From Nannobrachium achirus (taxonomy: Eukaryota; Chordata; Actinopteri; Myctophiformes; Myctophidae), in assembly GCA_963921795.1 (NCBI GenBank), contig OY997651.1:56774012-56838011 (forward strand): a stretch of DNA of 64,000 nucleotides, given 5' to 3'. Below, piece after piece: positions 61 to 64,000 of the stretch. The translations under genes and the position numbers were made by a program. Each line of letters opens with the position of its first letter. The stretch's first letter is position 1. Below the pieces are notes generated by a model. It was not told where the DNA came from and did no database searches. It saw only the letters and a list, made by a program, of their open reading frames with translations.

Positions 61-3000
61 CTATAACAACAAAACAATGAAGACAGCCACTGAAATTAAT
101 GAAATGATGAGCAACATTATGAATAAAAAATCACACCTGTGCGAAGTGAGTGTTGCAAACACAACACACGTGCAGATACAGTATATGTGGTTAATGGACA
201 ACACTTTGACATCATTGTCAATATAGGAAATTAATATAAAACTACAGATAGCAATGAGATTTCACAAACGCGTTCTAAGACAGGCAAACCAATCGGAAGC
301 CTCTGTGTCTATGACACCATGGACAAATCAGCATATGATTGTTCTGTTCTGTTCTGTTTGGCTAACTGATGACATCATAGTCAGAACAGCTTTTGATTGG
401 ACCATGTTGTCACCATTGCCATATTTCTGGTAAAACGAAGCGGAGCATTGGAGCGGTTTGCACCGCTCAAAAACAGTGCTGTCTCACTGACCACAGAGCA
501 TCCTCCTCATGCTATCCATCTCCCTCTGCAACTGGTCTCGTTCTTTGATCAGGTTGTTGGTCTTGGCCAGTTGATCGGTCAGGTTGTTGGTCTTGGCCAG
601 TTCTTCGGTCAGGTTGTTGTTCTTGGCCAGTACTTGGTTGTAACTGTTCATTAGTTGTTCTCTCTCCACCGTGTAGGACTGATCTGTATGGAAACAATAT
701 TTACAAAATGGAGATCCACGTTCGAAAAAATAACTAGAAAGTGTGTTCTTCTGAGCGCAGATCTTCGCTGGGCCTGGTTGCCTATATGTGTCAGTCAGTA
801 GTGAAGTGCTGCCGTCAGGACAAAAGGAGAGTTTGTAAGACAGGTGGTTTTGGAGGTGTACTCTATTAGAGGCTCTAGTCTGGTAAACCATCCTGGTCAC
901 CATAATGCACATTGTCATGTGTCTCCTGCTGACCGGTCTGGTCCCAAGCGTTGGGTGTGCGTATAGCAGAAACCGAAAAGTGTTCAGGGCCCTGAGCGCA
1001 GATCAGGGCTGGATTAACACCTCTGAGGGCCCCTGGCCCCTGAAGTTCCAAGGGGCCACGCTACACAGCGGCCCGTCACTGGCCACCCATCAGAACACAA
1101 TAATACAGTAGGCATATAGGTCCTATATAAAATGTACATTTTATTTGCTATGGGACATGGGTCATTCGGATTAAATTAAAAAAAATGGGAATTATTTTTT
1201 TATATTTTTGTTTTACCACCGTGGAGGGCCCCTGGGCACGTGCCCAAAGTGACTGGGATGGTTTACCAAGGCTCCTCAACATGCACATTTTTTAAATGAA
1301 AATTAGAGAAGGTACAGTATAGTAGGTAGGTAGGCTACAGTTGTATCAATGATGAACGCTAGGCTGTACGTGAATTAAAAGTGTCTCATTTGCATTGTTC
1401 CCCGGCCGTTACACACCATAAAAGGCAACAGGAACATCCAACGTGAAGCAAACCTCACCATAGTGCACGCTTGCAACATTTTACATCTCATTGGCAGCCC
1501 TCACATGAACATGAAACAAAGTAGGCCTATTTGCTCTCATGTATGATGAGCAGAAAACAATTCAGAGGACAAAATAATAGACCTTTAAAGCATAATATTA
1601 TTATGCTCACAGTCCAGGACATACTGGAACACCTTTATCCAATATAGCTTATGGATAAGAGTTTGATAACTGAGGGGAAATCTGTCCTTTGGATTAAAAT
1701 ACCTATCCACTTTCTATGTACTGTAATGGACACTGACTCCATCTAAGCTGCTTCATCAGATATTAAGACTTTTATGGCCCTATTTTCATCCATGCCTTAC
1801 CCCTTATCCCAAAACGCAAATAGCTGATCTACAAGCTCACAACGTGTGTGAATTTAGATCGCCTATTTAAAGTATTTAAAAATGGTTTTCAAAATAGTAA
1901 AAAAAGGAGGAACAAGTTTAGGGATAAGCGGTAAAGCATGGACGAAAATATGTCTGTCAGTCTATTGTGCAGCGTTCATGTTATCAATCAGTTTAATGAT
2001 TGCTAAATGGATTAATAACTATCATGACAAAGGCCAAACGGCACCAATGCAACAAGTCACAACTCCTTGCAATAAAACAGTTTTAAGGCATGTCACACCA
2101 ATTCAACTCTGTGCAACTGCCATTAGGGATAACGGTTGCGAGTAGTTGCATGTTGCAAGGAGTTGCATTGGTGCGGTTTGGCCTTTAGAGGTGCATCTCT
2201 GGTCTTCTGCAACATTAAAGGAGTAGTTCACCCCCAAAATGACTTTTTTTTCTATTGATGTGTCACACCATGGATCTTGAGTTCAATAATATTTGTTTGT
2301 ATTTGTCGCATTGCTAAGACAAAAAATAAATAAAAAATAAAATGATTATAGTAAATATACCCCCATTGATTCTGGATGGGGACCCAAATCCATTTTGTCA
2401 AGATGAGGAGAATATGGGGTGTGGAGAATATAATTATAATACCTTTGCAAGCCAAAGGGGGCCCCTTAAAAACAGGGGTACAGAGGTACTGCCGTGCAAT
2501 CTGCTATTTATTTATAAACATGTTTTAAAAAAGCAATGCACCAAATGATAACAACGCGCTCGGATCGCTCAGTGCAAGCCAGCAAAACGTGCATGAAGAA
2601 CGTTTTTTGGTCGGCCAACCTACTTTGATGCTGCTGAAGGATGTTTTCCTCCGTTCATTTGCATGGAGCGAGACGGGGTAATCCGCGAGAAAAAACAGCG
2701 CTCGAAAGTACATTACGTCCTCGTTGCACGGACATCGATCTAATCACATGTAATCCACTCATTCGGAAGCCTTGATTTCGTCTTTCGTCTGATCGAAAAA
2801 GATGAGGAGACGCGCTGGACAACTGGCTGCATACACAATAGAATGGAACGTAATGGCCGCCCATGGATCCCAGTTTCTCCGTTGCAGATGACGTCATCAC
2901 GTCTCTGACGCTTTGACCCTTCAGATGCTCTCTTAAAGAGACAGAGCACGACCGGTGACTGTTTTAAAAAAATATATATAATTAATTTCATTTTTACGAT

Positions 3001-62579: not shown

Positions 62580-64000
62580 ATTAGTGGAGCTACTACAATT
62601 CTTTACTTAATTAAAAGTATCAATACTGCAAAAGTATCAATAGGTCTACTGCAATGTGGAAATACTCTGCCACATATAGAAGTTGGGAATTAAAATGTAC
62701 TTGAGTAAAAGTACAAAAGTAATGATATCAAAATGTACTTAAAGTACCAAAAGTTGAAAATAGCCTACTCATTATGCAGAATGTCCTGTTTCAAAGGTTT
62801 TCAAATGAATAAAATGTAGAAAAATCATTTGAAAATAGCCGATCTACAAGCTCACAATGCGTCACAAACGCATGTGGCCGAAATGTATATAGGGTTGAAG
62901 TGATTTGTAACTGTAAAATCACAAAGCAACGAGTAACTAAAATGACACAGTCTTTTGAACGGCTCATTGAAAGGAACGGATCCCAGAGATCCGGCTCACT
63001 TCAAAGAACGATAAATCCCATCTCTACTTTCGGGTCAACGTGTTACGTCATGAGCAGCAAAGGATCCGGGCACTGTTGACTTTCGCCGCCCTGGTGGAGG
63101 AGGTGCGCAGTGGTGGAGAAAGTAGCCTACTCAATTGTTTTACAATACTGCAATATAGGCCTATGGAAATACTCTGTTACAAGTAAAAGTCTGGAATACA
63201 ACATTTACTTGAGTAAAAGTACAATGGCAGCAGCCGTTCGCAACTGGTAAAAAAAACTAACCTAGCCCAACCCTACCCTCCCCTGCCCCTTCTTTTTACT
63301 GTTTCTTTACTTTAGACTTACTGTTTTCTTTTTTTTTTGTTCTCTAATTTTTTTTCTTTACATCTACTGCATAGTATGGGGAACGTGCATATGACGTTTT
63401 GTAGGCCGATTTGGAGTTATCGGCCTACAAAACCAGCGCCATTGCTGAGGGGGACCTTTCAAAAAAAATAAAAAAAATAAATAAAAAGCTGTAGTTGCTT
63501 CTTGTCGGTGAGGTGGTGTGTAGGCTGGCTGTGTACATTTGTGTACATGTGTACTGACTAAAGTAGCCTATTCAATCAATCAAATAACAGATGGCCTCAG
63601 CAGGTAGGCTATAATACAAAACAATTAATTCAATTAACCAAAGACAAAACGGAGCAACAGGGCGACTGGAGAAAGAAAAATGACAACAAGATTTGTCACA
63701 AGATGTTGAAACATTTTCCAGTGACTAAATATAAAATAGCCTACAATTAAAATTATGCAAGTAAACAACATTCGATTGTGGTTTAATAAATAGGCTTAGG
63801 CCTGCGACCGAGTATTTCCCGGTGGATCTGTGCACAAGGGGCGGGGTCGATGGGCAAGAATGGCCTACATCACATCCGGGAAAGATAGCCCCGCCCACAT
63901 CGTGCGAGCGCAGGCTGCACTAGCCTCGCGTAGCCAGGCTTACTCATCTGCGAAGAGAAAAGCCTGGTGACAATAGAAGGCAGAAGACGTTCTGGGAGGG
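62580..64000. other. Right edge: repeat fragments, no gene recognised
   Basis: CAGTGGTGG-type fragments (62590-62960 with a half module at 62829-62876; 63107-63230), a GTTCTTTGAA-type inverted remnant (62960-63040) and a perfect 15-bp hairpin (63396-63433, GTTTTGTAGGCCGAT). From 63440 to the end I see nothing recognisable. Confidence 0.55.

Follow-up and report, generated by a model that had tools for sequence, protein, structure and literature searches.

Whether a short hairpin can pass from one family of transposons to another is the question raised by a 64,000-nt stretch of the Nannobrachium achirus genome (contig OY997651.1, positions 56,774,012 to 56,838,011; the whole stretch is called the window). 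A sequence-only reading had pointed to about 36 copies of one palindrome in this window, and the number was borne out, as each of the 36 listed positions has at least one outer arm (AAAATAGCCGATCTACAAGCTC, matched at 15 or more of 22 letters), a score reached by 14 of 2000 random window places. The palindrome, here called the module, is a unit of 71 bp made of two 34-bp arms and a 3-nt loop, and is found exactly so in 10 of the 36 listed copies. From the comparisons given below, this one module appears to have been present in the founders of many unrelated, non-autonomous transposons resembling miniature inverted-repeat transposable elements (MITEs), and to have multiplied in them as a passenger. 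The reading preferred here is that many MITE founders each captured the hairpin on their own, probably through template switching primed by the hairpin itself, and it is given a probability of about one half.

The module and its hosts

Both outer arms are present at 20 of the 36 listed positions; the other 16 have a single arm, and partly deleted forms are common, some listed copies being a lone arm or a collapsed stem (e.g. 9832, 12440, 12829, 36662 and 55512). With a 29-nt arm at 20 or more of 29 letters, 25 forward and 22 reverse matches were found in the window and none in three Markov-1 controls. A 37th copy, absent from the first list, is a collapsed module at 40064, and one window copy is a perfect palindrome (Table 1). 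Folded as RNA, the ten 71-bp copies are very stable (-32.5 to -63.8 kcal/mol). Across the genome (1,658,514,493 bases, 564 contigs), a 20-nt arm with up to 2 mismatches has 282,582 forward and 282,430 reverse matches, or 565,012 arm matches rather than modules, since one module holds up to two arms; the reversed control has none. Sampling elsewhere used 20 stretches of 10 kb (200 kb), taken at one fixed place on contigs 1–20 regardless of content. By a 16/22 arm test these hold 79 modules, spread over 16 of the 20 stretches, of which 40 have both arms (26 of them exactly 71 bp long) and 39 are one-arm matches, some of which may be chance at this threshold.

The host elements were named E1 (CAGTGGTTCTCAACC), E2 (CAGGGGTCTTCAAC), E3 (CAGGGGYGTCACACC), E4 (CAGTGGTGTAAAG), E5 (GGGATGGGACGATA), E5b, E6 (GTCACTGTCGGGCAG), E7 (CATGCTTTACCCC), E8 (CAGGGGTGGGCAACTT), E9, B (CAGGGGTTTTCTAAC) and X (L001–L004 and L014). 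Between most of these families local alignments stop at about ±36 from the module centre, whereas within a family they extend over hundreds of bases; E2, B and E5, paired with one another, align somewhat further, to about 45–75 from the centre. The flanks lying 40–150 bp out from 37 window copies form 14 groups at a score of 34 (6000 shuffles reached 29), 12 at a score of 30 and 15 at 40, and the 40 both-arm copies of the sample stretches form 17. When 195 outward flanks from the window, L001–L008 and the sample stretches are taken together there are 72 groups, 28 of them with at least two members, figures that differ from true family counts in that decayed or truncated relatives can show as singletons. 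The earlier statement that the ends and bodies of the hosts do not align was thus upheld for most families; the hosts do not align along their full length as one family, most being unrelated outside the module.

Nearer to the module, the separation is less complete. In the adjoining 45 bp, 5 of 1364 cross-family pairs lie above the 99.95% null level of 26 (0.68 expected), namely E3 with E4 and B with E2, and none above the null maximum of 31. Alignments show that E2, B and E5 share about 30–40 bp beyond the module on each side, and that E3 and E4 share about 15–25 bp on one side; some transfers, or later exchanges at the module, therefore seem sometimes to have carried sequence beyond it. The E2 copy at 27863 lacks about 37 bp of the shell shared by E2, B and E5, and 9–10 extra bases on the opposite side lengthen its palindrome; apparently the palindrome can be remade inside one family.

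The ends of the hosts give the clearest evidence on their descent. Elements of E2 and E3 have CAG..CTG inverted ends and perfect 8-bp target duplications, as is typical of hAT elements, both in the window (two E3 and one E2, Table 1) and elsewhere (E2 at L012:63–494, with a CAA start, and at L024:898–1340). E1 and B have hAT-like ends. E6, by comparison, has TCGTC ends and a duplication of TA or ATA rather than 8 bp, as seen in one filled/empty pair, in which a hAT-like element at 4632–4966 of the window is without E6 and its counterpart (L024:197–746) has E6 nested in it. The hosts are at least two kinds of DNA transposon. Shared descent of all of them from one ancestral hAT, which the sequence-only reading had allowed, is excluded, because the ends and the TA/ATA duplication of E6 differ from those of the hosts with 8-bp duplications, and because the flanks are unrelated. 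Separate acquisition is therefore needed, and it is very probable that unrelated hosts did acquire the module separately.

Eight elements of 171–471 bp have inverted ends and flanks repeated across copies, which places them among MITEs by these features. The ends and duplications of E2, E3 and E6 are of DNA transposon type and argue against identity of the module with a domain of short interspersed nuclear elements (SINEs). Eleven element candidates have exact 8-bp duplications; four of these are module-free, one has a module only in a nested E6, and another (48869–49442) is probably spurious, so that far from every such element carries the module. Its position near the symmetry axis of each host, as first described, holds for the six elements, from five families, with ends that were read (at 0.37–0.54 of the length) and for two E2 elements elsewhere (0.43 and 0.57), but not for E3, which has two modules, at 0.21–0.29 and 0.76–0.79.

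Arms, inverted flanks and module-less copies

The two arms of a copy resemble each other more than they resemble those of other families. The arm mismatch is 4.60 of 34 within a copy and rises to 7.37 when families are compared (0 of 5000 permutations). In the window, an identical departure from the consensus is found on both arms 17 times, where about 1.7 would be expected, and on a single arm 43 times; the sample stretches have 64 such shared changes, where about 9.1 would be expected, and 149 on a single arm. These are counts of copies, in which inherited states are counted repeatedly.

The palindrome does not end with the shared 71 bp; it extends about 7 bp further, where the hosts no longer have the same sequence, and then stops. 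Over these 7 bp the ten 71-bp window copies have 2.80 mismatches, compared to 5.01 when different families are set side by side (0 of 5000 permutations). When each family is represented by a single copy (ten, chosen for readable edges), the inverted flank matches in 10, 9, 8, 7, 8, 7 and 5 of 10 families at positions 1–7, and in 2 of 10 at position 8. The total for positions 1–7 is 54 of 70, where permutation gives 21.6 (0 of 20,000), and for positions 8–14 it is 18, against 17.5 expected; a mild excess at positions 15–30 (55 vs 42.1; 161 of 20,000) is perhaps due to E7 being palindromic throughout. The result was repeated in the sample stretches, where the arms alone decided the choice of representatives (64 of 119 vs 36.7, 0 of 10,000; positions 8–14, 37 vs 32.2, 2005 of 10,000). 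At the module edges of ten families no direct target duplication was found at offsets 0–8, except for a symmetric TA and letters inside the shared edge. The TA is symmetric near both edges in most of these families (16 of 20 letters at offset 6).

Copies with and without the module at the same place were also sought. In an automatic test 91 of 104 flank matches that reach the module edge carry the module, the probes having come from module-bearing copies and matching themselves as well. Of the remaining 13 rows, when read, six carry the module, four keep part of it, one runs into unrelated sequence, and two are the same module-less E6 copy (L023), which retains both flank halves of the palindrome. 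Genome-wide, the E6 flanks stand 0–30 bases apart, by exact match, at 137 places (control 0). Among the 100 of these 137 that were listed there are 87 distinct junctions; 60 of the 100 retain bases of the module, and for 44 the left and right parts of a filled copy, joined together, account for the sequence exactly. So many distinct junctions suggest that the module-less E6 copies arose mostly by separate deletions of the hairpin, and that the E6 founder had the module. The search thus yielded module-less E6 copies, mostly deletion-like, and no undisputed empty site.

A module-free, hAT-like element with the left end of E1 is present at 23718–24016, and its homology to E1 ends just short of the position of the E1 module. 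As an empty site of E1 it was rejected, since its right part scores 19.5 and 18.5, against 95% null levels from shuffles of 20.5 and 22.0.

How the hairpin could have entered its hosts

Capture by template switching would begin with a break near the middle of an element, from which a DNA end copies one arm of a module elsewhere during repair or replication. The new strand would fold back at the 3-nt loop, copy itself out to about 7 bases past the module edge, and rejoin the host. Both arms would then be perfect copies, and the short, host-specific inverted repeat would be the scar of the event; later, the same fold-back synthesis would keep re-matching the arms, and the hairpin would often be partly deleted. 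Such a process would explain why the arms are perfect and their changes paired, why the short host-specific flank is inverted and no duplication is seen, and why the module lies centrally. Multiplication, to judge from the ends and target duplications, would have been the work of each host's own transposase.

Several points weigh against this reading. The act of transfer is unobserved, and the route of entry is inferred. Nothing demands a recent transfer, as modules from different families are no more alike (identity 0.77 on average, 0.90 at best) than those of one family (0.83–0.90). A weaker flank test, with ten representatives that included several poor single copies, gave 8, 4, 7, 6, 4, 5 and 2 of 10, against 2–4 by chance. 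The 7-bp flank types recur, with CACTA/CACAAT in E1, E5b and E6 and TGGC-like flanks in E2, B and E5, and may therefore be diverged outer arms rather than scars. Lastly, the commonest module-less E6 junction (6 of 100 listed) joins two TAGT copies, and could be either a true empty site, which would favour transposition, or a precise loss; some E6 copies are flanked on both sides by ACTAGT, which is a direct as well as an inverted repeat.

These last observations bear on the main rival, that the module is itself a transposon of very small size, mobilised by a transposase that is encoded elsewhere, with a preference for targets that are palindromic or contain TA, for instance MITE centres; insertions landing in active MITEs would then have been multiplied. 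Its mostly sharp edges, common length and symmetric TA would fit such an element, as would the ACTAGT flanks of E6, the six junctions resembling a restored single TAGT, and the L023 copy with both flank halves of the palindrome. It is nevertheless rather unlikely, because the ten-family test at offsets 0–8 gave no direct duplication beyond the symmetric TA, the flanks are repeated in inverted form, something a standard transposase would not produce, the arms bear the same changes on both sides, and the majority of the listed module-less E6 junctions keep module bases. The earlier proposal of a mobile hairpin that enters other transposons therefore survives in part. Unrelated hosts and separate acquisition agree with it, but movement of its own is unsupported, given the lack of a direct duplication, the inverted flanks and the want of an undisputed empty site; template-switching capture, or an exchange from host to host, accounts for the data no less well than self-movement. 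A more far-reaching reading, in which the hairpin is itself a replicating unit and a parasite of transposons, is unlikely. Its folded, self-primed strand would enter breaks at the centres of MITEs and leave the 7-bp flank as a scar, only one arm would be informative in each move, and capture would have founded many MITE families.

That all hosts go back to one ancestral palindromic element, the ends of which were replaced over time, is improbable. The sequence shared beyond the module by E2, B and E5, and by E3 and E4, could be read in this way, and so could the left ~100 bp that E1 has in common with the module-free element at 23718–24016, as halves of elements may recombine. Beyond 40 bp, however, most families have no flank similarity above the null, the few near-flank pairs that exceed its 99.95% level all stay at or below the maximum, and E6 differs from the hAT hosts in both ends and target duplication. 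Single-hAT descent is refuted, and a local exchange around the module is possible.

A hairpin kept by function, whether it folds in a transcript, binds a protein as a palindrome or assists transposition, with selection explaining both its spread and the paired changes, is distinctly improbable. The stable fold, the changes shared by the arms and the very high copy number would suit it, but selection alone leaves the same sequence in unrelated hosts and the host-specific flank unexplained, the divergence of the module within families resembles that of the flanks, partly deleted forms are frequent, and the window has no Rfam match at gathering score. Chance similarity or an assembly artefact, which could be invoked for single weak arms only, at the rate seen in random window places, is already refuted by the genome-wide arm matches, against none for the reversed pattern, and by the modules in the sample stretches.

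Features of the window and related systems

The module copies and the delimited host elements are collected in Table 1.

Table 1. Module copies and host elements in the window (strand:., module; +, host element; ~, end or start approximate).
Feature	Position	Strand	Host or remark
Module, internally deleted	1817..1869	.	E7
Module 71 bp, left outer arm decayed	5210..5280	.	E1
Module 64 bp	5624..5687	.	B
Module, left arm only	9617..9660 (~end)	.	E3, first copy
Module collapsed to stem base	9837..9864	.	E3, second copy
Module, left arm and inner part	11334..11385 (~end)	.	E4
Module, right arm only	12425..12462 (~start)	.	near E4 fragment
Module, right arm only	12815..12852 (~start)	.	host unidentified
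Module 71 bp	13780..13850	.	E1
Module 71 bp	15047..15117	.	E5
Module 51 bp	24146..24196	.	E7
Module 71 bp, perfect palindrome	27868..27938	.	E2
Module, left arm and inner part	28435..28485 (~end)	.	E4
Module 50 bp	28746..28795	.	E1
Module 63 bp, left arm decayed	35740..35802	.	E1
Module remnant	36665..36692	.	E7
Module collapsed to stem base	40064..40092	.	E4
Module 69 bp	41496..41564	.	E4
Module, right arm only	42594..42622	.	E3
Module 59 bp	42849..42907	.	E3
Module 62 bp	47393..47454	.	E2
Module 52 bp	47892..47943	.	E3
Module 58 bp	48203..48260	.	E3
Module 56 bp	48696..48751	.	E3
Module 71 bp	49236..49306	.	E2
Module 71 bp	49891..49961	.	E6
Module 71 bp	52018..52088	.	E5b
Module, 71-bp span assumed, left outer arm lost	52384..52454	.	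E8
Module, partial	54002..54050 (~end)	.	E3, first copy
Module 71 bp	54254..54324	.	E3, second copy
Module collapsed to stem base	55519..55540	.	E3
Module 71 bp	55807..55877	.	E3
Module rearranged, GCTTGTAGATCG in tandem	56658..56745 (~end)	.	E6
Module 67 bp	57462..57528	.	E9
Module 71 bp, right outer arm lost	58035..58105	.	E5
Module, left arm only	58265..58302 (~end)	.	E5b-type flank
Module, left arm only	62832..62870 (~end)	.	E4
Host element E1	5109..5469	+	hAT-type ends
Host element B	5477..5826	+	hAT-type ends
Host element E3	9533..9936	+	two modules, 8-bp duplication gcagctag
Host element E2	47244..47685	+	8-bp duplication gtgtagag
Host element E3	53932..54402	+	two modules, 8-bp duplication ggtatgtg
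Host element E6	49786..50045	+	approximate ends; TA/ATA duplication known from another copy (L024)
Host element E7	24063..24287	+	approximate ends; halves match as inverted repeats

The tandem repeats in the rearranged copy are such as slippage in a hairpin might give. E1 and B stand head to tail, with the 8-bp duplication ccctaagg on both outer sides of the pair rather than around each element. This may represent a composite (chimeric) transposition, and a tandem insertion at one site explains it equally well. By eye, the E3 element at 42485–43030 can be seen to lie between two direct repeats (CACATCCACGTCAGCG.GCGCTTCCTTCT). At about 29 bp, these far exceed the target duplication of a hAT in length. 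The window also has large local duplications (600–2400, 13900–25400 and 30100–37800) at offsets of about 15–16 kb and 11–12.5 kb, the longest match being 1.46 kb at 76% identity. Module copies 24143 and 36662 sit in matching duplicated sequence, and are therefore probably paralogues by duplication rather than separate insertions. A 663-bp self-inverted repeat (11614–12276, 87% identity) separates two E4 fragments, and smaller ones are found at 10414–10704, 32497–32732 and 52517–52902. Between two E3 elements, a stop-to-stop frame of 336 aa (54444–55454) has five C2H2 zinc-finger matches.

SINEs that differ in head and tail have highly conserved domains (CORE, V, Deu) in common; these are domains of retroelements and are not known to be perfect hairpins. 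Angel and other fish palindromic MITEs have strong hairpin potential, and are known as single families; no module shared across families is known for them. Like the module, a SINE domain is one unit in the body of non-autonomous elements; in MER6 a SINE V domain lies inside a Tc1/mariner-derived MITE (PMC6887750). MER6 is one DNA-transposon family, whereas the hosts of the module are many such families and represent two kinds or more. Sharing of a module is known for SINEs and was not found for DNA transposons in the literature searched. Nothing of the kind was met there under shared internal MITE modules, chimeric MITEs or the birth of MITEs by template switching, as judged from listings, and six exact arm strings have no occurrence in it; Dfam and Repbase were outside the scope of this search, and a catalogued consensus is possible. 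Exact-pattern scans of viral and prokaryotic collections (four viral, two genome) gave no relatives.

Short hairpins have likewise spread widely as mobile mitochondrial palindromes, such as the GC clusters of yeast (e.g. GC42), the repetitive hairpin-forming elements (RHEs) of sponges and the double hairpins of Allomyces. Allomyces hairpin elements are without flanking duplications (PMC2800124), and for GC42 structural constraint and merger or shuffling have been described (PMC4478555). These palindromes differ from the module in being organellar; sponge RHEs are intergenic rather than in the middle of transposons, and GC42 has a putative AG target duplication. Template switching at quasi-palindromes makes arms identical and extends their identity (PMC3820800, PMC8604942), which accounts for the upkeep of the arms but not for arrival in a new host.

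The module, with its roughly 565,000 arm matches, is a sizeable part of this genome, in which it is probably a source of deletions. The 71-bp unit, the paired arm changes and the 7-bp host-specific inverted flank provide a measurable trace of the passage of a hairpin between mobile elements. The question of how MITEs originate becomes testable with it, as each family should carry the module at the internal junction of its formation. Taken together, the data suggest DNA that spreads as a passenger of other genetic parasites.

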